Positions 6,160 to 28,000 of a DNA stretch of 52,491 nt are shown piece by piece; the first letter of the stretch is position 1, and each line of letters starts with the position of its first letter. The notes below the pieces were generated by a model that worked only from the letters and a program-made list of their open reading frames with translations, had not been told where the DNA came from and ran no database searches. The translations under genes were made by a program, and so were the position numbers. Origin of the DNA: a virus. The stretch lies in the IMG/VR virus record IMGVR_UViG_3300044470_000064, positions 1 to 52,491 of that record; one strand, 5' to 3'.

Positions 6160-6171
6160 CCCCGCGCGGGG
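6160..6171. promoter_or_regulatory. Candidate operator palindrome CCCCGCGCGGGG
   Basis: A 12-bp perfect palindrome directly abutting the extended -10 of the leftward promoter, within the divergent control region. Its position would let a bound repressor block the leftward promoter. It could be the target of one of the small HTH proteins. No second copy was seen in the control region. Confidence 0.35.
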
Positions 6172-6188
6172 AATTGTGCGGGGATGGG

Positions 6189-6217
6189 TTGCACGGGTGT
6201 TCGGGACGTGGTAGGAT
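6189..6217 (+). promoter_or_regulatory. Rightward promoter in the divergent control region
   Basis: TTGCAC at 6189-6194 and TAGGAT at 6212-6217, separated by 17 bases, with TGG just before the -10. Transcription would start near 6224, which is itself a GTG in frame with the DUF4406-like gene, so the message may be leaderless or carry a 90-base leader to the stronger ribosome-binding site at 6302. Confidence 0.6.
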
Positions 6218-6313
6218 GCGGGTGTGAGTACGGGAGCCGCCCCGAAGCGCGCCAAACGTCCCCCCAGCGATGGGGCGGTTCCCGCATCCCACATCCCCAC
6301 TGGAGGTAAGCGC

Positions 6314-7282
6314 GTGCCCAAGAAGGACCCCCGTCGGAGCATTTACATTGCTGGCAAGATGAGGGGGTTGCCGCTCTACGGGTTCCCCGCCTTCGACGCA
6401 GCAGCCGAACGGCTCACCGCCGAAGGGTGGATTGTCCACAGTCCCGCAGACCACGATCGCTCGCTGGGATTCGACCCCGGCGGGCCGATGTGCGACGCTG
6501 AGACACTGGCTGCGATGCATCGCTGGGACATGCAGACCATCACCGAGAGTGACGCGATCTACATGTTGCCGGGGTGGGAGGACAGCGACGGGGCGACCCG
6601 AGAGCTGGACGTGGCGCGGGTGTGCGGGCTGGACGTGTATTGGGCAGACGATGCCACGCCGCCCTACGAAGCGGACGAACGGCCAGCTCCGCGTCAGTGG
6701 GAATACCCCACATGTACGTCCCACCCGACCGCCGAGCGTACCCACTGGAACGGCACCACCTGGACGGAGCCCCCATCTCCCGAAGCTGAGGCGACACTGG
6801 CGGAGTGGCAGCGCAAGTTGGACGCGTTGCCGCCGTACGTTCCAGGCGCGAAACTGCCGGTAGAGCCTCCAGACGGAGAGGCCATGGAACCGCGCCCGAC
6901 GTGGACGGTGACGCAAGAGGCGCCAGCCGTCAGTCGTCACGCCTTCAACCGCGCCGTGGATGCGAGCGTAGCGCGGACCCAGGCGATCAGCGGACAGCGG
7001 GGGGAGACCTATCAAGATACCTGGAGCGAGGCCAACCTTCGGACGTCGTTTCTGGACGCGACGTTGCGGAGTATCGCGGAGCAACAGGGCCACCACGGTG
7101 CCGACATCGAACTAGCGGCCCTGACGCCCGCCGAGAGGCGCCTGATCGTGGTCGCCTCCCTGTGTGACGTGAAGCTCTCGCGGCTCATCGGGGAGTGGAA
7201 GCAGGACCACGTAGACGACCTGGAGAACTACGCCGGCGCGTGGAACACCTGGATGGGGGAATACCTGGAGGGTAAGGCGTGA
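6314..7282 (+). CDS. DUF4406-like protein with C-terminal phage domain
   Basis: A 322-residue protein. The N-terminal half (SIYIAGKMRGLPLYGFPAF, then HRWDMQTITESDAIYMLPGW) matches the DUF4406 / nucleoside deoxyribosyltransferase-like fold, in which a Rossmann-like domain binds a nucleotide or sugar. The C-terminal part (RGETYQDTW, then WKQDHVDDLENYAGAW) resembles a small phage domain often found alone, so this looks like a fusion. The start chosen is a GTG with GGAGGT seven bases upstream; an in-frame GTG at 6224 sits at the predicted transcription start and would add 30 residues. It may act in nucleotide metabolism. The substrate is unknown. Confidence 0.65.
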   Translation: MPKKDPRRSIYIAGKMRGLPLYGFPAFDAAAERLTAEGWIVHSPADHDRSLGFDPGGPMCDAETLAAMHRWDMQTITESDAIYMLPGWEDSDGATRELDVARVCGLDVYWADDATPPYEADERPAPRQWEYPTCTSHPTAERTHWNGTTWTEPPSPEAEATLAEWQRKLDALPPYVPGAKLPVEPPDGEAMEPRPTWTVTQEAPAVSRHAFNRAVDASVARTQAISGQRGETYQDTWSEANLRTSFLDATLRSIAEQQGHHGADIELAALTPAERRLIVVASLCDVKLSRLIGEWKQDHVDDLENYAGAWNTWMGEYLEGKA

Positions 7283-10542: not shown

Positions 10543-10982
10543 CCGTGCGCGCAGCTCTAGCCAAGACGTTCTCGGTATACGCTCTGCTCTCGCTGGTTGT
10601 GGGGGCGCAGGCTGCCATCCTCGTTTTCGTGCGGGGTTTCGGCAATTCCAAGGCTGACGTGATCGCGGGGTCCATCCTCGGTTTCGTCGCGCTCGTGGCG
10701 TTCGTCGGGCACACCCTACTTGCCAACTGGACGATCACCGTCCCCGGGAGTGTGGTCGGTGTGTTGACGTGGGTCAATGGGGTCGCCGTGGCTCTGGTGG
10801 CTGCGGGTGGGATGATCGTGCAGTACGTCGGCACCGTCTCACCGACGCTGACGCCGTGGGTCGCCGTGGCGCTCCAGGGTGCTGCGCTGGTTGGCTCGCT
10901 GATCGCTGGGCTGTTCACTGCGTCGGTTGCGCGTCGGGTTGCGCCGCGTGGCCTGCCGTTCGACGCGAGAGCCGCCAGGTGA
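10539..10982 (+). CDS. Four-helix membrane protein, possible holin
   Basis: A 147-residue protein with four hydrophobic segments (about 8-30, 40-62, 67-92, 100-125) and a basic C-terminal tail ending RRVAPRGLPFDARAAR. The size and topology resemble small phage holins, but the gene lies far from the endolysin gene and next to other tiny membrane proteins. It might instead remodel the host membrane early. The ATG is coupled to the upstream stop. Confidence 0.55.
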   Translation: MTVRAALAKTFSVYALLSLVVGAQAAILVFVRGFGNSKADVIAGSILGFVALVAFVGHTLLANWTITVPGSVVGVLTWVNGVAVALVAAGGMIVQYVGTVSPTLTPWVAVALQGAALVGSLIAGLFTASVARRVAPRGLPFDARAAR

Positions 10983-11104
10983 CCATCCCAGTGACGATCC
11001 TCGTCTGGGTGGGCGTCGTCGCGGCCGTGGCTGTCGCCTTGTTTCTGCTCTCGGCCGCCGTAGTTGGAAGCTTTGAGGGCATACGTCGGGCAGTCAAGCG
11101 ATGA
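10979..11104 (+). CDS. Tiny single-pass membrane protein
   Basis: A 41-residue protein from a GTG (GTGA overlap): hydrophobic residues 2-28 (VTILVWVGVVAAVAVALFLL) followed by a basic tail GIRRAVKR. It probably has one transmembrane helix with its C-terminus in the cytoplasm. The function is unknown. Confidence 0.55.
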   Translation: MTIPVTILVWVGVVAAVAVALFLLSAAVVGSFEGIRRAVKR

Positions 11105-11184
11105 CCGACGAGGACCTCCCCGTCATTACCCAACCGCCCGAACCGGACGACGAGGACGAGCAGGAAGCGTGGGGGCCTGACTGA
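11101..11184 (+). CDS. Very short acidic ORF
   Basis: 27 residues, rich in Asp, Glu and Pro (PPEPDDEDEQEAWG). The ATG overlaps the previous stop and its stop overlaps the next ATG (TGATG). These couplings support translation, but such a short ORF may only link ribosomes between neighbours. Confidence 0.4.
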   Translation: MTDEDLPVITQPPEPDDEDEQEAWGPD

Positions 11185-11456
11185 TGAGCGATCTCGATAA
11201 GCAGACGGATGCGGTGACTGAGCCTGCCAAGGTCTGTCCTACGTGTGGCCGTTGCCCAACGTGCGGCAGGTCGGACGCGCAACCGTTCTATCAGTGGCCG
11301 TACCCAGCGCAGCCTATCGTCCCCAACGCTCAACCCTACCCGGTACTGCCGTGGGGGCCGTGGTACTTCGGGACGGGCGGAAACATATGCGAGGTCCACG
11401 CCACGGCCAATGGCACCTCCGTGGCCTCGGGCGGCATGGTAAGCGTTAGCCTCTGA
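11184..11456 (+). CDS. Small double-CxxC protein
   Basis: A 90-residue protein with two adjacent CxxC pairs (VCPTCGRCPTCGRSD), a proline/tyrosine-rich middle and a small beta-rich C-terminus (VHATANGTSVASGG). It could hold one zinc. The remainder resembles short decoration-type sequences, but no family is recognised. Confidence 0.6.
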   Translation: MSDLDKQTDAVTEPAKVCPTCGRCPTCGRSDAQPFYQWPYPAQPIVPNAQPYPVLPWGPWYFGTGGNICEVHATANGTSVASGGMVSVSL

Positions 11457-11467
11457 GGGGAGACCTG

Positions 11468-11761
11468 ATGCGGAGGGAAGGCGCGGAGGCGTGGCTCGCC
11501 TGGTATCGCAAGGCTGAGGATGCCTACGAGAAGGCGGGTGAGCACGCTCTGGGCCTCTGGATCAGGGAAGGAAAACCGAGCGAAGCGTACCTAGAGGCGG
11601 TCGAGGCTGCCACCGTCGCTCGCTGGCGTTGGCACGCTGCGCTACAGGCGCTGAACGGTTTTATGGAAAACGAAGCGGCCCACCCGGCCCCGCCCCGGCG
11701 TAATCCGGACGGCTCGGACTGGTGGAACGTGGACTGTGGAGGGATAGAGGATGACCGATAG
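11468..11761 (+). CDS. Helical hypothetical protein
   Basis: A 97-residue protein rich in Ala, Trp and Glu (EAWLAWYRKAEDAYEKAGEH), predicted to be largely helical, with a disordered C-terminus. A GGGGAG site precedes the ATG. It overlaps the next gene by 11 bases. No family is recognised. Confidence 0.6.
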   Translation: MRREGAEAWLAWYRKAEDAYEKAGEHALGLWIREGKPSEAYLEAVEAATVARWRWHAALQALNGFMENEAAHPAPPRRNPDGSDWWNVDCGGIEDDR

Positions 11762-16720: not shown

Positions 16721-18286
16721 GTGACCTCGAACCCCTGGACCGTGGCGGCCCGCCACTTCGTCCCGCCGACCGTGCGCTCCCGCTGGTACTGCCACCGCCC
16801 AGAGTGTGACGGCAAGCCCCACGATGGCTGGCAGGCCCACGCCCGCACCGCCCAGCGCCCTCCGGTGGGAGACTGGTTCGTTTGGCTCATGCTGGCTGGC
16901 CGAGGGTTCGGCAAGACCCGCGCCGGCGCCGAGTGGTTGGCAGAGCAGGCCCGGACCCACACGAACTCCGCATGGGGGCTGATCGCCCCGACGTGGTCAG
17001 ACGTGCGGAAGTGCGTCCGCGACCCCGAGGCGGGGCTGCTGGACTGCCTGGGCGCTGATCTCGGGGTCCACAACATCACCACTGGCACGGTAACCCTGAA
17101 GAACGGGTCGATCATCCACTGTGTCTCCGCCGACCAACCTGACCGTCTGCGAGGCTACAACCTCTGGGGCGCGTGGGTGGATGAGCTTTCGTCCTGGCGC
17201 AACCCCGAGGCGTGGTCCACGATGGTGCCGGCCTTGCGTGTGGGCTCACACCCGAGGATCGCTGCCACCACGACCCCCAAGGCGGTGGCGCTGATCCGCG
17301 ATCTTGTAGGGCGTCACGATGGCTCCGTGGTGATTGTCCGCGGCTCGACGTGGGATAACGCCGACAACCTCGCCCCGTCGGCTCTGGCTGAACTTCGCAC
17401 CCGGTATGAGGGGACGCGGATCGGCCGGCAGGAGTTGGAGGGCGAGTTGCTAGAGGACGTCCCCGGCGCCCTGTGGACCCTGGAGCTGTTCGAGGATCGT
17501 GAGATCAAGGGCGCGGACGGACAGGTCGAGCGCAGCCTAGCGGGACGCGCTGAGATTACACCTGAGTTGCGGCGGCTGGTGGTAGGTGTGGACCCGACCG
17601 GGGCCGACACGGGCAACCAGGACGAGTGCGGCATCGTGGTGGCCGGCAAGGGTGTCGATGGCCACGGGTACGTCCTCGCCGATCGGACATGCACGGCATC
17701 CCCCGCCGAGTGGGCTCGCAGAGCCGTGGCAGCCTACCGCGAGTTCGGCGCCGACAAGATCGTGGCCGAGGGCAACTTCGGCGCCCAGATGGTAGTCGAT
17801 ACCATCAAGACCGCCGACAAGTCCGTACCCGTCGAGATCGTCACCGCATCCCGATCCAAGCGCCAGCGGGCCGAGCCGGTGGCGGCTCTTTATGAGCAAG
17901 GACGCATACACCACGTCGGCCAACTGGCCAAGCTAGAGGACGAGCTGATCTCATGGACCCCCGAGAGCGGGTGGTCACCGGGACGCATGGACGCCCTGGT
18001 GTGGGCGATCTCGTGGCTCAACCTCGCCGGAGGGCAACTGGACACGCTCTGGCAGCGAGAACTCGACGCATCGCCCACTGTCGTGGCTGGCGGGTGGGCA
18101 GACGTTCCCGGCGAGGGATGCCCGCAGAGTGACGATGGCAGGCACTTCTGGAACGACGGCTTCTGCGTCCACTGCCGGGCGCCCCAGCGGCCAACCGTCG
18201 CCGTGCCCAGCGGACCCGGGTCAGCGTGTAGTCACTATCGGCGGCGCAACGGCGTGTGCATGCTCTGTGGCAAGGAGGCAGCGTGA
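16721..18286 (+). CDS. terL: Terminase large subunit
   Basis: A 521-residue ATPase-nuclease motor. Walker A-like AGRGFGKTRAGAEW is near residues 59-72, the acidic Walker B is in GAWVDELSSW (about 150), and the RNase H-like nuclease has VVGVDPTGADTGNQDECG (about 288), IVAEGNFGAQM and a MDALVWA aspartate. After the nuclease there is an extra Cys/His tail (GFCVHC, CSHYRR, CMLCGKE) of about 60 residues, probably zinc-binding and not usual in the family. The GTG start has only a distant GGGGGA. The enzyme packages DNA into proheads via the portal. Confidence 0.92.
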   Translation: MTSNPWTVAARHFVPPTVRSRWYCHRPECDGKPHDGWQAHARTAQRPPVGDWFVWLMLAGRGFGKTRAGAEWLAEQARTHTNSAWGLIAPTWSDVRKCVRDPEAGLLDCLGADLGVHNITTGTVTLKNGSIIHCVSADQPDRLRGYNLWGAWVDELSSWRNPEAWSTMVPALRVGSHPRIAATTTPKAVALIRDLVGRHDGSVVIVRGSTWDNADNLAPSALAELRTRYEGTRIGRQELEGELLEDVPGALWTLELFEDREIKGADGQVERSLAGRAEITPELRRLVVGVDPTGADTGNQDECGIVVAGKGVDGHGYVLADRTCTASPAEWARRAVAAYREFGADKIVAEGNFGAQMVVDTIKTADKSVPVEIVTASRSKRQRAEPVAALYEQGRIHHVGQLAKLEDELISWTPESGWSPGRMDALVWAISWLNLAGGQLDTLWQRELDASPTVVAGGWADVPGEGCPQSDDGRHFWNDGFCVHCRAPQRPTVAVPSGPGSACSHYRRRNGVCMLCGKEAA

Positions 18287-20874
18287 GAATCGGCCCCATG
18301 GAGATCAGCCGCGTCCACAAGGCGGCCGACTATCCGATCCCGTCGCCCGTGAACGGCACGAACGCGCCCCCGAACATCGAGCAGTCCCTACAGAACCAGG
18401 GCATGGGCTGGCAGCTTCCGTTCCCGCCAGGCCATCCGCTCTACCCGTACTTCGGCTATGGCGCGGAGCCGCGGCAGTTCGACTACCAGACCGGTGCCAA
18501 CATCACCGTCCGCCCTCGGTCGGGCAGGATCTCGTTCGACACGCTCCGGGCCTTCACGACCACTTGGGACGTGGCCAGGATGTGCATCGCCCACCGCATC
18601 AACTCGATCCGGTCGTTCGACTGGGCGATCGTCCCCGCCGACGGTTCGGAGGGTGACAGCGACATCGGCCTGGCGCTGGAGACTGGACGGAAGGCCATCG
18701 AGAAGCCTGACGGTAGGCTGCCCTACAAGCGGTGGCTTGCCAAGGCGCTGAACTCACGTCTCCGTTATGACGCCCTGACGCTCTACAAGCGACGGGACAT
18801 GCTCGGACGTGTGATGGCGCTAGAGGTCATCGACGGGACCACCATCGCCCCGATGTTGGACTACTACGGCCGTCTGCCGGTGGGTGACGCCCCGGCCTAC
18901 CTCCAGTTCGCCAACGGCGTGCCGTGGGACTGGCTGGCTGACCGGGACGTCATCTATGCGCCCTACTTCCCGCAGGAGGATTCGCCTTACGGCTGGGCGC
19001 CGGTCGAGGACGTGATCGCCGTCGCCAACATCGACGAGCGGATGACGCTCCATCTGTTGGAATACTGGAACACGTCGAACCTACCCGCCGGCTGGCTGGA
19101 GGCTCCGCCCTCGTGGGACGACCCCGCCAAGCTGGACGACTTCCAGGCGCGGCTGAACGCCAAGCTCATGGGCGACCAGCAGAAGAAGGTGCAGGCTCAC
19201 GTCGTGCCACAGGGGACGAAGTTTACCCCGATCCGTTCGGAGTCGTTCGACACGGACGCCTACCTCTGGGGTTTCAGGAAGGGATGCGCTGCCTTCGGGG
19301 TGGTGCCGCAGGACCTCGGGGTCACGCTAGACATCAACAAGGCCACGGGGGAGACGCAGATAGACGTCCAGTCCCGGATCGCTGATCGTCCGATGTGTGA
19401 GGATCTCGACGGGCTCATCACCAGTTACCTCCAGGACGACCTGGGGCTGCCGGTGAAGATGCAGACCTCCTACTCGGCCGAGAAAGAGGATCGCGTCGCT
19501 GACGCCAATGTGTGGAAGATCGGCACCGAGGGCGGGGCTGTCACCGTGGACGAGTGGCGCTCCGAGATGTTCGGGCTGGAGGTCGATTCCGACCGGCCCG
19601 TGCCACGGTTCATCATGTCCTCTCGGGCGGGGCCGATCCCGCTGGCCAACCTGTTCGCCATCTCCGGCCCGATCAACCCCGCCACAGGTGGGCCGCTGGA
19701 CACGACACCGCTGGTGGACACCGGTAAGAAGCCCTTCGAGGCTGCCGCCGGCGTGGCTCCCGGAAAGACGCTCAACACTCCCGGCGCGCTCGTCTCGACG
19801 TTCAACCCTGATGAGCCACAGTTCCCGCAGGACGAGCTGTCTGCCACGCCTGCCCCCACCACGATCGCCGCAGTGGCCAAGAGCGAGACTGAGGGCATCA
19901 CGTCCGAGACTGGCCTAGTGGGTTACGACGAGTTCAGAGCCTCGCATCCTGAGCTAGACGACGACGAGGACGACGAGGACGACCGGGTGGCAATCCAGAA
20001 GGAACTCGGCCGCTGGCGTGACTTCGCCCGCAACCGCGTCAAGACTGGCAAGCCGCTCCGGGCCTTCGCCTCCACGGTGATCCCCGCTGATGTGTCAGAG
20101 CACATCACCAAGGCACTCGCTGGCTGCACCACGCGGGCTCAGGTTGACGCCGCCTTCGCGGAGGCCGCCAAGAGCGCCGATTTTTTTCTAGGTGACGTAG
20201 CGCCCGTTCACAAGGCGCATCCCCTTGTTCCATCCGCCACCGTGGGGAGTATTCCTGCCCTTGGCGTACATGTCCGCGATGTTGTCCTTTTGGGTCCCCA
20301 GGAAGAGATGGTCCGGGTTCACGCAGCCCCGGTTGTCGCAGTGGTGCAGAACCAACAGACCAGCGGGAATCGGCCCGTGGAAGAACTCCCAGGAAACCCG
20401 GTGGGCAAGGCGAACCCCATGAGGGTCGCCGCGGCGCCAGCGTCCCCGATGCACCCCGACGAGCGTGTGGAAGTACCCGTAGCCCCCTTTGAGGGCGCTG
20501 CTCGTTTGGGCACCAAGCCAGTTCCAACACCCGTCACCAAAAGAAACCCTGCCCCAGAATCGCAAGAACTCTTCCATAAGACCCATTATACCACCTCGCG
20601 GGCTAACCCTACTGCGGCAGTAGCCTACCCGGTCAGGAAGGCCAAGCACCCCACCGATGCCCTGCTCGACCAGATCGTGGGGCACTACGCCCCGCTGGTT
20701 GGCCAGGCGCTTGCCAGTGCGTTGCCATCACAGTCCCGGCTCGCCCAGGGGAACCTGACGCCCGCCGACCTCGACCTCTCGCAGCTACAGGCGGTGCTCA
20801 CCGAGGCCACCACGGATGCGTGGGTCGGCGGGGCGCTGATCGCGGCCGATGCCGTGACCAACCGCAGGGGCTAA
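18283..20874 (+). CDS. Portal protein with N-terminal half of a MuF domain
   Basis: An 863-residue protein. Residues about 60-450 have the portal pattern ([20 protein letters not shown], then [18 protein letters not shown], then [20 protein letters not shown]). An acidic stretch (DDDEDDEDD) follows at about 560. The last 95 residues ([20 protein letters not shown], then [20 protein letters not shown]) match the first part of the MuF head domain that is often fused to portals. The matching second part is in the next plus-strand gene at 22698. Residues about 635-765 are read through the antisense HNH gene and are probably not ancestral portal sequence. The GTG start overlaps the terL stop. Confidence 0.85.
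20188..20577 (-). CDS. HNH homing endonuclease antisense to portal
   Basis: A 129-residue HNH enzyme: [16 protein letters not shown], then [38 protein letters not shown] and [14 protein letters not shown]. The HHCDN, CVNPDH and following residues are the H-N-H metal site of phage homing endonucleases. It lies entirely inside the portal frame on the opposite strand, where the portal frame stays open. Its ATG at 20577 follows a consensus TATAAT by seven bases, with no ribosome-binding site. Such enzymes cut intronless or empty target alleles to spread their gene. The region directly after its stop has a run of seven A on its strand. Confidence 0.88.
20585..20593 (-). promoter_or_regulatory. Extended -10 promoter of the HNH gene
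   Basis: TGGTATAAT on the minus strand: a consensus -10 with an extended TG, ending seven bases before the ATG at 20577. No -35 is evident. It lies inside the portal gene. Confidence 0.65.
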
Positions 20875-21180
20875 AGCCCCGCCCCGCCACGCCCAACCGC
20901 GCCTCACCCGGCCTTGCCTGCCACGCCATGCCAGACCCAGCCATGCCACGCCCGACCCAGCCCAGACTTGCCGGCCTAGCCTGACCGCGCCTAGCCTAGC
21001 CACACCTGCCCCGCCATGCCCTGCCTCGCCCGACCCCGCCATGCCGCGCCTCGCCTGCCACGCCGAGCCGCGCCCGGCCGAGCCGCGCCTTGACCCGCCT
21101 TGCCTGCACCGCCATGCCCCGCCCCGCCACGCCCAACCGCGCCTCACCCGGCCTCGCCTAGCCGCGCCTGCCAATAACGC
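20875..21180. repeat. C-rich degenerate pentanucleotide repeat tract
   Basis: About 305 bases after the portal stop with GCC recurring every five bases (NNGCC units, few slips), for example CGCCACGCCC, CATGCCATGCC and AGCCTAGCC. A 39-base stretch at 20876-20914 is repeated exactly at 21116-21154, a shift of 240 bases, equal to 48 units. Both strands are open in some frames but encode only low-complexity Arg/Gly/Ala or Pro/Ala sequence, so no gene is called. The tract lies between convergent genes. Confidence 0.8.
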
Positions 21181-21184
21181 GATT

Positions 21185-21682
21185 TTAGTTGGTCTCCCTC
21201 TCTACAGCATCGAGCGCTTGCCAGACGGGCGCCAACTCCTTGAGTGACTGATAGCGACGACGGAAGCCCTTGAGCGCCGCCAACGCCTCGCGGAGCACGT
21301 AACTCCGCTGACCTGGCTCTGCCAGGGCCACGGTGAGCAGAGAGTACCCCTCGCTCTGGCCGTCGTCAGGGGCCGCCATCACGACATGCACGAACGCCGG
21401 GGCATCCTCGCGGGTGCCTTCCGCATCAACGCATCGAACGGAGTTGATGATCTGACGGGCCTGCTGGACGCGCCACGCCTCAGCACCCACCCGATCATCC
21501 CACTCCAACGTCGGGTGCAGGGGGCTGTCCTCCGGCCGAGCGACGTCCACATAGGTCGCGGGGGCACAGACCCCCTCTCGGGCGGCGATCTCTGCCACCG
21601 TCTCTCCCACGACCTGAGCGGAGACGGTGCAGCCCGGACCATGTCCCGACCAAACGTAACGGGTCGCTGTAGCAAGGGTCAT
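21185..21682 (-). CDS. Conserved-looking phage protein of unknown function
   Basis: A 165-residue protein. The pattern YVDVARPEDSPLHPTLEWDD, then EAWRVQQARQIINSV resembles a family of unassigned phage proteins that share an SPLH...EWDD motif followed by an arginine-glutamine helix. The ATG at 21682 overlaps the stop of the upstream gene (TGATG). It belongs to a two-gene minus-strand unit between the two halves of the MuF domain. Confidence 0.6.
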   Translation of the reverse strand: MTLATATRYVWSGHGPGCTVSAQVVGETVAEIAAREGVCAPATYVDVARPEDSPLHPTLEWDDRVGAEAWRVQQARQIINSVRCVDAEGTREDAPAFVHVVMAAPDDGQSEGYSLLTVALAEPGQRSYVLREALAALKGFRRRYQSLKELAPVWQALDAVERETN

Positions 21683-22275
21683 CACACCACCTCGAACAGA
21701 CCGAACTGTCCGTCCTTCTCGGGGCGCCACTCGCCGATCCCCACCGCGAAGCCTGCCAGGTTGAGCAGGTTCACGATCTGATCGACGGAGATCGAACGGG
21801 CGTTGAAGATGATCGGCAGTTTAGCCGACCACTCGGGAAACTCGGCGCGGTAGCGGATATCAGCCGTTCCCATGCCGACCCTGACCATGTCCTCCCGACT
21901 GTGGGGTGTCCCCTCGATCTTGACCATGTCACCGAGGATGTGGAAGGCGCCGCGCAGGAACGTCATCTTCATGTCGCAGTAGGTTCCCGCCCGCACGGCG
22001 GCACCCTTGAACGCGACGGACGGGAAACCGTAGCCCCCACCGGGGTACGGGTAGAGCGAAGCCTGATAGTCGGCTTCGGGGTCCTTGGCCTCCTTGGCCT
22101 GCTTGGCCGCCTTGGTCTGCTTGTCTAGCATCTGCCGCTTGGCCTTCTCCGACCAGCGGTGACAGATCAGCGGAGACAGCCCCCGCACGGTCAGCTCGAT
22201 CCGCTGAGTGTCTAGTTCGACCCGCTGCACCACGGCGGTTTCCTCTGGTGCCTTCGTCGTTGTCGTGCCGGTCAT
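21682..22275 (-). CDS. Conserved phage protein, SPLI...GxGEWRPEK family
   Basis: A 197-residue protein. The motifs TVRGLSPLICHRWSEKAKRQ, then YPYPGGGYGFPSVAFKGAAV and, at the end, GFAVGIGEWRPEKDGQFGLF recur in phage proteins of unknown function; the glycine-rich end is reminiscent of RAMP-like folds, but that is only a resemblance. The ATG has GAGGAG upstream. Together with the downstream gene it forms an island transcribed against the head operon from the promoter at 22333-22362. Confidence 0.65.
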   Translation of the reverse strand: MTGTTTTKAPEETAVVQRVELDTQRIELTVRGLSPLICHRWSEKAKRQMLDKQTKAAKQAKEAKDPEADYQASLYPYPGGGYGFPSVAFKGAAVRAGTYCDMKMTFLRGAFHILGDMVKIEGTPHSREDMVRVGMGTADIRYRAEFPEWSAKLPIIFNARSISVDQIVNLLNLAGFAVGIGEWRPEKDGQFGLFEVV

Positions 22276-22332
22276 AGCCGCTCCTCTCGGCCGTCGGGCC
22301 GTTACAAGACCCCGGCGGCCGAATACTTCCCT

Positions 22333-22362
22333 ACTATACGCGTCCCGCTACGGGAAAGTCAA
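22333..22362 (-). promoter_or_regulatory. Consensus-like promoter for the two-gene island
   Basis: On the minus strand TTGACT (22357-22362), 18 bases, TATAGT (22333-22338). The spacer contains the palindrome CCCG-TAG-CGGG (22344-22354), a possible operator, which resembles the core of the gene-end repeat. A leader of about 50 bases with GAGGAG precedes the ATG at 22275. Confidence 0.65.
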
Positions 22363-22412
22363 GGAGGGCAGATGCCAGGCCCCACCACTCTGACGGCCCC
22401 CGCCCAGTCGGC
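22362..22412 (+). repeat. 51-bp direct repeat, left copy (duplicated MuF gene start)
   Basis: Exactly identical to 22688-22738. It contains the AGGAGG ribosome-binding site, the ATG and first 13 codons of the MuF gene. In this left copy the frame continues from the ATG at 22372 to 22650 but is antisense to the gene at 22432 and is probably non-functional. Confidence 0.85.
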
Positions 22413-22431
22413 GCAGTCACACGGGCAGCAC

Positions 22432-22668
22432 TTAGACATCTCTGATTTCCCTCCGGTGGATGCGGGCAATTCGTTCCACCCTCTTGCAGAAGGGCGAGGT
22501 CAAGTCCTCGGAACCGCAGACCCCCTGGGGAAGCCCGGCGTCGAGGCGGTCGAACAGATCGTCCCAGTCAATGGGATATTCGGAGTACCAACCCTCCACG
22601 ATGGATTCGATGTCCTCCCGGAGCGCATCGGCCTCCGCAGCCGTCTCTAGGAACCACCAATCGCCCAT
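22432..22668 (-). CDS. Lone antisense gene between direct repeats
   Basis: A 78-residue acidic protein (GDWWFLETAAEADALREDIE, then GWYSEYPIDWDDLFDRLDAG). No family is recognised. It has its own extended -10 (TGCTAGACT) six bases before the ATG and no ribosome-binding site. It is bounded by two identical 51-bp copies of the MuF gene start, so it appears to be an inserted cassette. Its acidic, Asp/Trp-rich composition would suit a nucleic-acid mimic or a small inhibitor, but this is speculation. Confidence 0.6.
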   Translation of the reverse strand: MGDWWFLETAAEADALREDIESIVEGWYSEYPIDWDDLFDRLDAGLPQGVCGSEDLTSPFCKRVERIARIHRREIRDV

Positions 22669-22674
22669 AGCGCC

Positions 22675-22683
22675 AGTCTAGCA
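22675..22683 (-). promoter_or_regulatory. Extended -10 promoter, leaderless
   Basis: TGCTAGACT on the minus strand, identical to the extended -10 at 6151 and 14267, with six bases (GGCGCT) to the ATG at 22668. Confidence 0.6.
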
Positions 22684-22687
22684 CAAC

Positions 22688-22738
22688 AGGAGGGCAGATG
22701 CCAGGCCCCACCACTCTGACGGCCCCCGCCCAGTCGGC
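22688..22738 (+). repeat. 51-bp direct repeat, right copy (functional MuF gene start)
   Basis: Identical to 22362-22412. Here the ATG at 22698 leads into the complete MuF C-terminal gene. The last bases before the repeat belong to the promoter of the antisense gene. Confidence 0.85.
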
Positions 22739-23261
22739 ACTGCCCGCCTCGATGCAGGACACGGCATGGGGAGACTGGACGCCCGGTTGGGCTGGCGCGG
22801 CGGCCACGATCAGCGACCCTGGCCTGGACGCGGTGCTCTCGGGCCTCGGGTTCACCCTGAAGGGCCTCGCCTCGTCCACCATCGACCAGATCGGCTCCCA
22901 GATCGCTCAGGGGGTCGCCTCTGGCGCCTCGATGGATTCTATCGCCATGGGTCTCCGGGATTCGTTGGGCGGGGACGCCTCGCGGGCCTACACCATCGCT
23001 GACACCGAGTGCGCCCGTGCCGCTCAGGATGCGAGCATGCAGACCTACCAGGCCAACGGCATCGAGATGCTCGACTGGCTCGTGGCAGATGATCCCTGTG
23101 ACGACTGCCAGGCGAACGCCGACGGTGGTCCGTATGCGACGGCCGACTTCCCGGACTTGCCAGCTCATCCGAGATGCCGGTGTGCATCGTCCCCGAACAT
23201 CGAATCGCTGACTGGCGGGACCTCCGACGACACCACCAATGACACAGACCAGGGAGAGTAA
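22698..23261 (+). CDS. MuF-like minor head protein, C-terminal half
   Basis: A 187-residue protein with [20 protein letters not shown], then [40 protein letters not shown] and [11 protein letters not shown]. The T-E-x-x-R-A helix and the closing PAHPRCRC signature belong to MuF-type head proteins. The first helices of the domain are missing here and are found at the C-terminus of the portal gene, so the domain is split. AGGAGG precedes the ATG. Whether the two halves associate, or only one acts, is open. Confidence 0.82.
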
Positions 23262-23263
23262 CT

Positions 23264-24739
23264 ATGGTCCGACGCGTTCTCGCTGTCCTTACCGCGCTGG
23301 CGGTCGCAGCCCTTGGGTTGTTCGCGCTGGGCTCGTCCAACCGCGTCTCGGCCGCCCCCCTGCCTGGCCTCAGCGTATCTGGTAACCACCTGGTGAACGC
23401 CTCCGGGCAGACCGTCGTGCTGCACGGGGTCGACCGGTCGGGCACCGAGTACATGTGCGTCCAGGGCGGCGGCATCTTCGACGGCCCGTCCGATGCCACC
23501 TCGGTGGCCGCGATGGCCTCGTGGGGGATCAACGCCGTCCGCATCCCTCTCAATGAGGACTGCTGGCTGGGCATCAACGGAGCCAACCCGGGCGGCGCCA
23601 TCTATCAGTCGGCGATCGAAGCATACGTCACGCTCCTGCACTCGGCCGGGATATACGCGATCCTGGACCTCCAGTGGACCGCCCCCGGTTCGGTCGAGGC
23701 GACGTACCAAGAGAACATGGCCGACTACAGCAACTCGGTGCCCTTCTGGGCGTCTGTTGGCGCCGCTTTCAAGAACGACCCGGCGACCCTCTTTGACCTC
23801 TTCACCGAGCCGAACAACATCGGCATCGTGGGTTGTGTGGCGGGCGCTCCTGCCGGTTGTGCTACCGCCGTCGCCGAATCCGCCGCCGGCAACGGTGAGG
23901 GCGCCTTCTGGTGGTGCGCCTACGTAGGGACAGGCTGCATCGCCAACCAGAACTCGGCCAAGTTCGGGAACTGGCAGATCGCCTCCATGCAGGACATGCT
24001 TACCGCCGTCCGCGGTGCCGGAGCATCCAACGTCGTCATGGTCGGGGCCGACCAGTTCGCCAACGACCCGAGCGCATGGCTGGCGAATGTGCCGGTCGAT
24101 CCTGACCATCAGCTCGCCATGAGTTTCCACGTGTACAACTTCAACTACCCCTGTGTGAGCCTCGCCTGCTGGAACTCCGAGCTCCTGCCCATCGCCGCCT
24201 CGTACCCGATCATCTCGGGTGAGATCGGCGAGAGTGACGGCAGTGCGAGCTTCATCGACGGCTACATGGCTTGGGCGGATGCCAACGGGGTCTCGTACCT
24301 CGCGTGGACCTGGGACACCTGGGGTTGCGGAGATTCGGCCGTGCTGATCTCTTCCTACACCGGAACCGCCTGTGCCGGGTATGGCGCTGGATACCAGGCG
24401 CACCTGGCCACGCTGGCTGGCAGCACCCCAACACCGACGAGCACACCGACGGCGACGCCGACCAGTGGACCAACGTCCACACCTACCCCTAGTCTGCCGA
24501 CACCCACCCCCACGTCCACACCTACGGCAGTGCCGACCCCGACACCCACGGCGGTGCCGACGGCCACCCCCACGCCACGTCCGACGAGCACGCCGCGACC
24601 AACTGCTACCCCGCGGCCGAGCGCGACGCCTACACCTACTCCGACGCCGGAGCCGAGCTTCACCGAGACGATCACCGTCAACGGACACACCTGCACGATC
24701 ACCGTGACTAACGGCGTGGTTAGCGGGACTTGCACATGA
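23264..24739 (+). CDS. Secreted glycoside hydrolase family 5-like enzyme
   Basis: A 491-residue protein. Residues 1-31 form a signal peptide ([20 protein letters not shown], cleavage after VSA). Residues 32-385 follow the GH5 barrel: [30 protein letters not shown], an acid/base candidate in DLFTEPNN (E182), MSFHVYNF (H289) and a nucleophile candidate in IISGEIGE (E320). The usual Asn before the acid/base is Thr here. A Thr/Pro linker (387-464) joins a small beta-rich C-terminus ([18 protein letters not shown]). GH5 enzymes cut beta-1,4-glucans or mannans. Set two bases after the MuF gene and overlapping the next gene, it is clearly part of the phage head operon, not host flank. Confidence 0.85.
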
Positions 24740-24927
24740 CGGACGCTGAAGTCATGGCCTCTCTGCGGGGCCATATCGAGAGGTACGGTGAGGATGGGGC
24801 GAGCCTGACCTATGAGGACGGCCAACCCGTGATCCATATCGAGGACCGCAAGAAGATCGTCCACTGGTTCGCCGGGACGGGCTCAACGCACTGCGGATTC
24901 CCAACCCCAGACGGTAGCTGTACATGA
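24736..24927 (+). CDS. Small hypothetical protein
   Basis: A 63-residue protein ([20 protein letters not shown], then a short strand-rich end). Its ATG overlaps the GH5 gene stop (ATGA) and its stop overlaps the next ATG. It is coupled to the head operon; the function is unknown. Confidence 0.55.
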
Positions 24928-25178
24928 CGATCGCTGCCCGCCGTCTCGTTACCGTTGCCATCCCCGACATGGATGGCTGCGAGCGCACCCTGCGCTATGC
25001 CGCCGAGCGGATGTGCCAGGGGACGGACGTCATCGTCGTGGATCGGCACCCGCTGATCCCTGACGCGGTGATGCCGGAACTCTTCGCCAAGCTCACCGAG
25101 GTGGTCCGGGATGCCGCCGGGCAGGCCCGCCATCACATCGACAAGCACCTTTCAGCCACCTACTCACGAGGATACTGA
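24924..25178 (+). CDS. Small hypothetical protein
   Basis: An 84-residue alpha/beta protein (RLVTVAIPDMDGCERTLRYA, then a strand DVIVVD). No family is recognised. Coupled by ATGA overlap upstream. Confidence 0.55.
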   Translation: MTIAARRLVTVAIPDMDGCERTLRYAAERMCQGTDVIVVDRHPLIPDAVMPELFAKLTEVVRDAAGQARHHIDKHLSATYSRGY

Positions 25179-25179
25179 C

Positions 25180-25401
25180 ATGGGAGACGCTCTAGCTGTC
25201 GCTCGGGCGGCAGTCGATCAAGCTCACGCCGCCATGGTCGAGGCCAAGAAACTGTGTGTGAATTGCGGCGGGCCAGACGACGTACCCGCTGCGGGCGAGC
25301 GCTTTGGTGCCGTCCATGCCCCTCACGCCGCCGAGGTTGAGGCAGCCCATGCTGCACTCCAGCAGGCCACTGCGGCCCAATTCCTGGTGGAAGGGAGCTG
25401 A
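25180..25401 (+). CDS. Small Cys-pair helical protein
   Basis: A 73-residue protein: a helix (ALAVARAAVDQAHAAMVEAK), then LCVNCGG and a second Ala/His-rich helix. The single CxxC and flanking His residues might bind zinc. No family is recognised. Confidence 0.55.
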   Translation: MGDALAVARAAVDQAHAAMVEAKKLCVNCGGPDDVPAAGERFGAVHAPHAAEVEAAHAALQQATAAQFLVEGS

Positions 25402-25402
25402 C

Positions 25403-25873
25403 ATGGGAATGTCTCAGGCACTTCAGTTGAACATCCTCGACGCCATCTTCGGCGGTGGGGCCTCCCAGTCGGCATGGACCGGCGTCGCCACCGTGTACTG
25501 TGGTGTCTCGACCTCGACGTACTCCGTCACCCTGCTCGACGCCACCATCATCGCGGCCGAGCCATCCTCGACGGGAAGCTATGCTCGGATCGTCATCACC
25601 AACAACTCGACCAACTTCCCGGCCTCGACCACCAGCACCGCGACAGGCACCAAGAAGCTGCACGTCGCCTTCTCCTTCACCACCTCGACGGCGGCCTGGA
25701 GCACCGGCGCGACTGCGCTGGCGTCCTTCTTCTTCTCCAGTGTGACCACACTCGCCACCGGCCCAGTGATGTACATGGGCGCTCTCTCCCCGGCCACCGA
25801 CATCGTCAATGGAACGGGTGTCACCTTCACCTTCGCCATTGACGCGCTCCAGATGACCCTCGCTCCCGCGTAA
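25403..25873 (+). CDS. Decoration or fibre protein (short beta-rich)
   Basis: A 156-residue beta-rich protein. MSQALQLNILDAIFGGGASQ, then TVYCGVSTSTYS, AEPSSTGSYARIVITNNSTN follow a pattern seen in short phage proteins annotated as head fibre or tail fibre proteins (LxNxLLDxxFGG...YVGLST...EPxxxxYARVxVTN). It is probably exposed on the virion. The start chosen is the ATG at 25403, just after the previous stop. Confidence 0.6.
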   Translation: MGMSQALQLNILDAIFGGGASQSAWTGVATVYCGVSTSTYSVTLLDATIIAAEPSSTGSYARIVITNNSTNFPASTTSTATGTKKLHVAFSFTTSTAAWSTGATALASFFFSSVTTLATGPVMYMGALSPATDIVNGTGVTFTFAIDALQMTLAPA

Positions 25874-25885
25874 GGAGCCTGAGCG

Positions 25886-27676
25886 ATGGCGATTGCCCTC
25901 GCCCAACAGGTAGGTGGTGGCGCCACCGTTACTGGGCAGACTACCTGCACGCCTGTGATCTCGTCGTCGGCGGGCAACCTGCTTGTCCTTATCGTCACCT
26001 GGTCCAGTTCGGGCCTGGGTACCAACGACAGCATCGCCGTCAACACAAACGGCGGTACCTGGGTCGGCGGCACCAATGTCGCCAACACGTCCCCGAACGG
26101 TTGCTCGTTCTCTGCCTATCTGCCCAATAACGCGGGCGGATCGCTGTCGTGGACGGCAACCTTCACCCCCGGCTATGGCAACACTACTCTCGGATGGACG
26201 TGGAACATCCTGGAGTTCTCCGGGATCGCCACCTCCTCGCCGCTCGACCTGGCGATGGTGTACAAGACCAACACCGCCCAGACGGCGTGGACGACCACGG
26301 CCGCCTCGGGGACGACGGTCTCCACCGATCTGCTGGTGGCCATCTATGGTGGGCACATCAGCTCGACCCTGACCTTCACGGCCAACGCCTCGGGGTCGTT
26401 GCCGTCGTCGGGGTGGGCGAACACCACACAGGTCGTCGCCGCGCTGGGCGGCGCCGCCAACTGTCACAACATCGGCTCGTACGTCGTCCCTGGCGCCACT
26501 GAGACCTCGCCGGTCTGCGTCATCACATGCTCGGCTTCTGTCACCTATGAGGGATTCCTCTGGACCTTCAAGGTCGGCGGCACCACTGACACCCCGACCG
26601 GCACTGGTGCAGAGACCGCCGCATCGACAGCCAGCCTGACGAGCGGCCAGGCCCTCACCTCTACCGCAGGCTCTACAGGCGCAGCCACCGCGAACGTCAC
26701 GACATCCCAGGCCCTCACCTCGACTGCGGCCGAGACGGGCGCATCCACGGCGAATGTCACCGCAGCGCAGACGCTATCCTCGACAGCGGCGGGCACGAGC
26801 GCCTCGACTGCTAACCTGACGAGCGGGCAGGCGCACACATCCACGGCGGCGAGCACTGGGGCTTCGACAGCCAACCTCACCGTCTCCCAGGCCCTCACCT
26901 CGACTGCGGCCGATGTTGGGGCTTCCACCGCCAACCTCACTGTCGCGGTAACGGCGACGGGCTCCGCCGCCGAGACAGGGGCCTCATCCTCCACTCTGAC
27001 GGAGGTTGCGGCTCATACTGGCGTCGCAGCGGAGATAGCAGCAGCGAGCGGCGCGCCGAGCGTGGCCAGCGGGGTTAGCCCGACTGGTACGGCCTCGGGC
27101 ACCAGTGGCGCTACAGCCAACCTTACGGTCTCTCAGGCGCTGACGAGCACGGGCGCAGAGATGGGCGCCTCGACCGCGAACCTGACCGAGACGGCGCTCC
27201 ACACCTCGACTGCGGCTGAATCGAGCGCTGCGAGCGGCGTCCCCAGCATCAACGCTGCGCCTGTTACCCCAACGGGAACGGGTGCGGGCACCAGTTCCGC
27301 GACCGCGAACCTATCGGTCACCGTCCTGCTGGTAAGCCTTGCCGCTGGGGTGGGCGACTTGGCGGCGAGCCTCACGCAAGCGGCGACCCTCGCTGGCATC
27401 GCACTCGGGACTAGCGGGGCAAGCGGCCTACTCTCCACGTTGCAGCAACTCGCGGGAACGGGTGCGAGCGTCAGCGGTGCATCGGGTACCCCGGCGCTCC
27501 TCATGCTGGCCGCCGCAGTCTACACGGCCACCGTCCGCAGCGGACAGGGATTCACCAGGGCCAGGACCGGCGCAACGGTCGCAACGTCCAGGACTGGCCA
27601 GGGCAATACCAGGGCGAGGACGGGAACGGTGACAGATACAGTCCGCACCGGCGATCTCACCGTCCACGCTCGATAG
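25886..27676 (+). CDS. Repetitive Thr/Ala/Ser-rich surface or fibre protein
   Basis: A 596-residue protein. Residues 1-232 form a beta-sandwich-like domain (AGNLLVLIVTWSSSG, then SLSWTATFTPGYGNTTLGW). From about 236 to 500 follow roughly thirteen copies of a 20-residue unit around TSTAAETGASTANLTVSQAL, encoded by a 60-base period. The C-terminus is basic with RTGQGNTRARTG motifs. Such low-complexity repeats are typical of extended fibres or adhesins. It follows the decoration-like gene and precedes the prohead protease, so it is probably a head-associated fibre. No signal peptide. Confidence 0.65.
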   Translation: MAIALAQQVGGGATVTGQTTCTPVISSSAGNLLVLIVTWSSSGLGTNDSIAVNTNGGTWVGGTNVANTSPNGCSFSAYLPNNAGGSLSWTATFTPGYGNTTLGWTWNILEFSGIATSSPLDLAMVYKTNTAQTAWTTTAASGTTVSTDLLVAIYGGHISSTLTFTANASGSLPSSGWANTTQVVAALGGAANCHNIGSYVVPGATETSPVCVITCSASVTYEGFLWTFKVGGTTDTPTGTGAETAASTASLTSGQALTSTAGSTGAATANVTTSQALTSTAAETGASTANVTAAQTLSSTAAGTSASTANLTSGQAHTSTAASTGASTANLTVSQALTSTAADVGASTANLTVAVTATGSAAETGASSSTLTEVAAHTGVAAEIAAASGAPSVASGVSPTGTASGTSGATANLTVSQALTSTGAEMGASTANLTETALHTSTAAESSAASGVPSINAAPVTPTGTGAGTSSATANLSVTVLLVSLAAGVGDLAASLTQAATLAGIALGTSGASGLLSTLQQLAGTGASVSGASGTPALLMLAAAVYTATVRSGQGFTRARTGATVATSRTGQGNTRARTGTVTDTVRTGDLTVHAR

Positions 27677-27685
27677 GGAGACAGT

Positions 27686-28000
27686 ATGGCAGGCATCACG
27701 CCCTGGGCGACCGGGCAACTTCTCCCGACGTGGGTGATCTCGCTGGTGGACGACAACGGCAACCCCGTCAACCTGACGGGTGCTACGTCTGCCGCGCTGA
27801 GTTTCCTACAGGGGAACAGTGCCTCTGTCGGCGCCGGTGTGGCCGCGGTCGCATCCCCGCCCACGCTGGGACAGGTGACCTACGCGCCAGCAACGGCCGA
27901 TGTCGTCTCGCCGGGAACCTACAAGGTATTCGTGAACGTGACGTTCCCATCGGGGGTCCTCACGAGCGATCCGCTGCCATGGATTCTCGTCCAGTCATGA
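27686..28000 (+). CDS. BppU-like small beta protein
   Basis: A 104-residue beta protein: ITPWATGQLLPTWVISLVDD, NLTGATSAALSF, then PGTYKVFVNVTFPSG and DPLPWILV. The pattern resembles the N-terminal domain of phage receptor-binding and baseplate BppU/DUF2479 proteins, which here would be a stand-alone fold on the head surface. Confidence 0.55.
   Translation: MAGITPWATGQLLPTWVISLVDDNGNPVNLTGATSAALSFLQGNSASVGAGVAAVASPPTLGQVTYAPATADVVSPGTYKVFVNVTFPSGVLTSDPLPWILVQS

Follow-up and report, generated by a model that had tools for sequence, protein, structure and literature searches.

An HNH endonuclease gene nested antisense and codon-aligned within the open reading frame of a phage portal-MuF gene

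On the usual view, a homing endonuclease gene spares its host gene by residing in an intron, an intein or an intergenic gap. The closest known case to the locus described here is that of the ShiLan domain and the hidden HNH of Pacc40 gp60 (Arsenault, Gosselin and Gogarten 2025, PMC11855218), where HNH genes are hidden in an alternate sense frame of insertions in phage methylase genes and the host frame stays open with no splicing element. Our locus lies in a window that spans an entire virus record (52,491 bases), and here too an HNH gene fills an insertion in an open host ORF with no detectable intein or intron, modelling shows the insert as a loose excursion, and leaderless expression is plausible. 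The published HNH genes, however, lie on the same strand as their host in a shifted frame, occupy a non-essential mycobacteriophage methylase and have spread among phages, whereas the HNH gene of the window is antisense and codon-aligned, sits in a structural portal-MuF gene and is known from one copy. Because of these three differences in strand, host gene and copy number, we count it as a variant of the hidden-HNH class rather than as a member.

Other described systems share some of these properties. The HNH genes mobE, in nrdA of phage Aeh1, and mobA, in gene 60 of T4 (PMC2988022), also lie in coding sequence without a splicing element, and host function is presumed to be kept there as it is in the window, but in those phages the host protein ends up as two polypeptides, whereas the window keeps one frame. 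An endonuclease gene on the strand opposite to that of its host gene, as in the window, is also known from group I introns of nuclear rDNA (Didymium S956; cited in PMC13182076); genes of this type differ in lying in self-splicing rRNA introns, with no host reading frame at stake. WHO elements of yeast FBA1 (PMC7282813) home without splicing, and some lie opposite to the host gene, but they restore that gene by carrying the end that is replaced and have no nested frames. A similar geometry is seen in inteins in the MuF genes of L003, Snoke, Vivi2, Malisha and others, in which an antisense codon-aligned endonuclease occupies an open frame belonging to this gene family. That enzyme is of the EDxHD/Vsr/DUF559 type with a helix-turn-helix and is carried by an intein with splicing motifs, so that the host protein would be restored; the HNH gene described here is outside this class and has the geometry in common, minus the splicing.

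The host gene in the window is the first part of a portal-MuF fusion. Its portal ORF runs along the plus strand from 18256 to 20874 and encodes 872 aa, 136 of them net from the insert, with a Pfam match to Phage_portal (PF04860) at residues 150-436 (1.3e-12). A second insertion (20875-22697) lies between this part and the MuF half (22698-23261, plus strand; Pfam Phage_Mu_F, 9.7e-9) and so splits the fusion, while portal and MuF form one frame in L003, and the fusion is also found in the Arthrobacter phages Sonali and Mufasa8. A search of the genome contigs collection returned no portal relatives. Comparison with L002 and L003, whose portal DNA is 93-96% identical to the window (95-96% for L002), gave exact junctions: an inserted segment of 417 nt at 20178-20594, to which no strand applies as such, replaces the 9 nt AAACCCTTT, with a net gain of 408 nt, or exactly 136 codons. 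The empty site in these two relatives (5876-5935 in L002 and 9882-9941 in L003) reads ...AAGAGCGC-AAACCCTTT-CTCGCGGGCTAACCC..., and the more distant fusions of Sonali and Mufasa8 lack the insert too, so the occupied state is derived. Occupied and empty alleles of one site, by which homing endonuclease genes are recognised, are thus represented by the window and by L002 and L003, respectively. A preliminary description of this DNA had placed the HNH gene at 20188-20593, which is nearly right, and had expected alignment with portal homologues to show an insert of 120-140 residues; the 136 codons lie exactly there, no equivalent sequence is present in any of the four homologous portals, and the insertion of the HNH gene within an open portal frame is confirmed.

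The gene itself (20188-20586, minus strand) encodes an HNH_3 endonuclease of 132 aa (MGLMEEF...), or of 129 aa if read from the ATG at 20577. It takes up 399 of the 417 nt, leaving 10 nt between its stop and the left edge of the insert and 8 nt between its start and the right edge. The locus is known from a single contig, as a metagenome assembly artefact might be, but we find this highly improbable, since both flanks run on at 92-95% identity to the same relatives, the gene between the two edges is complete and the net length is in frame. The translated ORF matches Pfam HNH_3 (PF13392) at E 5.7e-16, with 58.3 bits against a curated cut-off of 24.8, and several PHROG HNH families, the best being PHROG 1872 (2.9e-28). 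Its closest relative is 51-53% identical, and it keeps every residue that is invariant in 31 relatives, including His81 and His93. A sequence search against solved structures gave no meaningful match; in a fold search, the AlphaFold model, which has a confident core, came closest to I-HmuI (probability 1.00, though at E 8e-3), a homing HNH enzyme. The GC content by codon position in the HNH frame, 0.62/0.47/0.77, resembles that of neighbouring genes (0.64/0.47/0.85 in the upstream portal), while in the portal frame the insert has these values in reversed order, 0.77/0.47/0.62, which shows that this stretch was shaped as a gene of the minus strand. Together with the Pfam and PHROG matches and the invariant residues, this upholds the earlier view of a convincing HNH gene that lies wholly within, and antisense to, the portal ORF.

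Peptide-pattern scans of the IMG/VR viral contigs revealed no second copy of the insert, and the HNH gene was absent from all 11 related records in which it was looked for. Among 84 HNH relatives none is nested; 11 of them have any antisense frame open, and none has a long open frame on both sides. We also considered nested HNH genes in the annotated phages cthkR962, SPN1S and LUZ24, but all of these proved to be same-strand neighbours with short overlaps. The single copy of the insert, the absence of nesting among these 84 relatives, and the finding that HNH relatives in the annotated phages that we checked are ordinary same-strand genes weigh against a homing-type gene nested in this way. 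Rather than a homing enzyme, the protein could be a domesticated phage function, for example in packaging-associated nicking, as the gene for the large terminase subunit is found a short way upstream and HNH proteins that aid packaging exist (PMC11855218). We regard this as quite unlikely, because the gene is absent from the two closest relatives as well as from all 11 related records, is of the HNH_3 type, which is related to homing enzymes, and lies antisense to late genes.

The preliminary description stated that the portal frame stays open through the insert, and this is the case: the portal and HNH frames share codon boundaries, every HNH codon, when reverse-complemented, gives a portal codon of this stretch, and the frame is kept downstream. 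Antisense is the safe orientation, because the stop codon of the nested gene reads CTA, TTA or TCA on the opposite strand. In a simulation with the codon usage of this phage, the codon-aligned antisense frame of the HNH-encoding gene was open in 30% of cases and the other four registers in 0.6-9%; of 133-codon stretches taken from genes of the phage itself, 37% have the codon-aligned antisense register open, and at most 5% any other. Homologous GC-rich portal genes have antisense frames that are hundreds of codons long. A blind insertion would combine the orientation, the register, openness and a length divisible by 3 in about 1.7% of cases (0.5 x 1/3 x 0.30 x 1/3), and among insertions that spare the host frame the codon-aligned antisense arrangement is expected in about 70% (from the ratio of open rates). 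The openness of the portal frame is by itself weak evidence and less remarkable than it looks. An in-frame antisense insert in a structural protein had been called unusual, but an open frame is to be expected in about one third of codon-aligned cases. Nor is the locus unprecedented in kind, as out-of-frame HNH genes in open host frames have been published, on the sense strand of a non-essential gene (PMC11855218).

The insert enters at about portal residue 641, well behind the portal core, in a linker that is variable among relatives and has a conserved helical stretch on one side and the first helices of MuF on the other. The insertion is in a structural gene, as had been proposed, though it falls outside the portal core, in which the PF04860 match ends at about residue 436. 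In a model of the portal tail, the insert has a pLDDT of 30-40 and no secondary structure, while the flanking helical segments reach 75-87; the underlying alignment holds only five sequences, and the model shows a lack of predicted order and no more. The portal-MuF fusions of Sonali and Mufasa8 (L015 and L016) contain a MutT/NUDIX-like segment near the linker, and one Mufasa8 record labels the fusion gene as NUDIX. Such a segment implies that the region tolerates additions.

Downstream of the insert, the portal/MuF coding sequence (20595-20874, plus strand) continues in the same frame at about 92% DNA identity to L002, as compared over 20595-20855. All seven window-specific changes at 20628-20847 are synonymous, in third positions of the portal frame, which supports reading through the insert without proving it, as some of these changes may predate the insertion. 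The portal could also be complete before the insert, with a tail that was already dispensable and decaying after the MuF split, in which case retention of the frame would need no selection. The 30-37% chance of openness in this register fits such a history, as do a separate MuF half with its own start and a portal ORF end that differs between the window and L002. A net length that is a multiple of 3, however, and a tail with this degree of identity and exclusively synonymous changes speak against it, as does L002, which is split as well and retains the same tail. We consider a decaying tail unlikely, though it deserves more weight than domestication of the HNH protein.

Removal of the insert by splicing, as an unrecognised intron or a degenerate intein, would be another way to spare the host, and splicing elements are frequent carriers of endonuclease genes. 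The preliminary description had named splicing of the portal mRNA as evidence that would overturn it, but as far as can be judged from the DNA no intron or intein is detectable. The intein families of Pfam have no match in the window portal, and the group I/II intron RNA families of Rfam have none at E<=1 over 17800-24800. By eye, the insert ends in HYTT/S rather than HN/C-S-T and has no TxxH block. The HNH gene leaves no room in the insert for a ribozyme or a Hint domain, and the portal frame is open throughout. We therefore find splicing scarcely credible here.

The signals from which the HNH gene might be expressed lie at the right junction. A putative Shine-Dalgarno sequence, GAGGTGG (20591-20597, minus strand), straddles the junction, with GAG coming from the target and GTGG from the insert; the same motif precedes a neighbouring gene start at 21682, where the minus-strand gene begins with GAGGTGGTGTGATG. 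Next to it, TGGTATAAT (20585-20593, minus strand) is by sequence pattern either a possible extended -10 element or the spacer between the Shine-Dalgarno sequence and the ATG. TATAAT occurs once in the record, where 1.5 occurrences are expected by chance, and TGnTATAAT also occurs once, where 0.04 are expected. Read as an extended -10, it would set off a leaderless transcript from the second ATG (20577). However, TATAAT overlaps the HNH start codon (20586), a few bases ahead of which GAGGTGG stands, and the same letters may merely space the ribosome site from this first ATG. The TATAAT that had been assigned to the gene as its own is thus a perfect extended -10 by pattern but ambiguous in role, since it overlaps an ATG behind GAGGTGG. 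Transcription may also arrive from upstream, where three minus-strand genes, on the same strand as the HNH gene, span 22668 to 21185. Two of these overlap (21185-21730 and 21682-22275; phrog_15946, 3.6e-26, and phrog_4652, 2.2e-30), and ahead of these cargo genes lies a predicted sigma-70-type promoter, TTGACT-18-TATAGT (22333-22362, minus strand), by consensus match only (10/12). No minus-strand terminator is predicted between this promoter and the HNH gene, and the antisense cargo genes are a possible source of read-through transcription into it.

We think it probable that the window holds a homing-type HNH gene, without intron or intein, that is kept as a tolerated antisense insert in the portal-MuF linker. 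A small gene of this type would have inserted into a dispensable, flexible stretch of the protein and become seated antisense and codon-aligned, so that its start, its stop and nearly all of its codons give sense codons when the opposite strand is translated, for which reason the host frame is usually left open. Ribosomes would then read the portal mRNA straight through, and the portal tail would gain 136 mostly unstructured residues, which we infer would be carried into virions. Minus-strand transcripts would yield the HNH protein, through a leaderless or Shine-Dalgarno-led message that starts from the extended -10 or through read-through from the cargo genes. In co-infection, it would cut the empty portal-MuF site AAGAGCGC-AAACCCTTT-CTCGCGGG, and the gene would be copied in by repair.

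This reading gains support from the sister phage L003, where another endonuclease gene has the antisense codon-aligned arrangement. The portal-MuF gene of L003 (8001-11585), in which the HNH site is uninterrupted, contains an intein in its MuF part at about 10669-11490. The intein has the motifs HPR/CLPGW...THN/CRC and matches Pfam Intein_splicing at E 2.9e-4, below the family cut-off, and within it lies an antisense codon-aligned ORF (to 10677) that encodes a helix-turn-helix and a Vsr/DUF559/MTES_1575-type nuclease domain, with matches to the latter that are weak in L003 and clearer in relatives. Relatives of this endonuclease were found in 131 phage records from many hosts. Inteins with this antisense geometry occur in phages that infect Salmonella, E. 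coli, Klebsiella, Pseudomonas, Gordonia and Mycobacterium; MuF inteins of the kind were noted in L003, L111, L112, L113, L192, L193, L197-L199 and L108-L191. In viral contigs, the endonuclease is antisense and codon-aligned within a longer open frame at 69 of 69 distinct loci, down to 41% GC, and most of these loci have intein motifs that a pattern search recognises. In annotated isolates it is antisense and codon-aligned to an annotated CDS in eight of eight cases, the CDS being of MuF type where annotated. In the records that we checked, the MuF strand alone is annotated.

Selection on both strands of these MuF-intein loci is visible in substitution patterns. Among Snoke, UPWr_S5 and ZS, substitutions in the MuF part fall mainly at MuF wobble positions, and those in the endonuclease core mainly at the wobble positions of the endonuclease, with environmental pairs being similar; in these comparisons the endonuclease core has its substitution peak at its own wobble position (29 v 14 and 24 v 7). 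Over most of the intein, Snoke and UPWr_S5 are separated by 5-9 differences per 150 bases, but in the flanks by about 29-58 per 150, as would be expected after recent homing. Of 65 sequences in which both patterns were found, 58 have the nuclease core motif VAVEV and the intein-strand motif EDFHGDG on shared codons; in the remaining seven, the simple pattern matched elsewhere in the sequence. The searchable literature, outside the scope of which lies a preprint on non-canonical actinobacteriophage inteins (bioRxiv 2025.01.02.630785), held no description of antisense endonucleases in inteins, and MuF inteins of this kind appear to be a large, undescribed group.

Taking the widespread MuF inteins and the unspliced portal HNH gene together, we lean, by a little, towards codon-aligned antisense nesting being a general means by which homing endonucleases reside within protein-coding genes. 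The window suggests a route further to intron, intein and intergenic gap, in which an antisense codon-aligned insert is simply read through by the frame of a structural gene. The register calculation predicts where hidden antisense genes should be sought, and annotation pipelines that forbid overlaps will miss nested endonuclease genes of this kind.

Other features surround the locus. The second insertion (20875-22697) contains the antisense genes at 21185-21730, 21682-22275 and 22432-22668, as well as a GC-rich degenerate repeat (20876-21169); in its place L002 has a different antisense gene (6162-6692), and L003 has an intact fusion. The small antisense gene at 22432-22668 is flanked by a perfect 51-nt direct repeat (22362-22412 and 22688-22738) that contains the MuF start with its ribosome site and resembles a duplication made by insertion. 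Between MuF and the next shared gene, about 4.7 kb of the window (23262-27950) are absent from L002 and largely from L003. This region encodes a GH5 cellulase-like protein (23264-24739; Pfam, 5.3e-21) with a hydrophobic N-terminus and a Pro/Thr-rich tail, as well as a repeat-rich protein of 596 aa. On the other side, the middle of the terminase large subunit gene (16770-18046) has no DNA match in L002 or L003, whose terminase differs, while the ends of the gene match both at about 95%; this is a gene swap in phages that are nearly identical otherwise.
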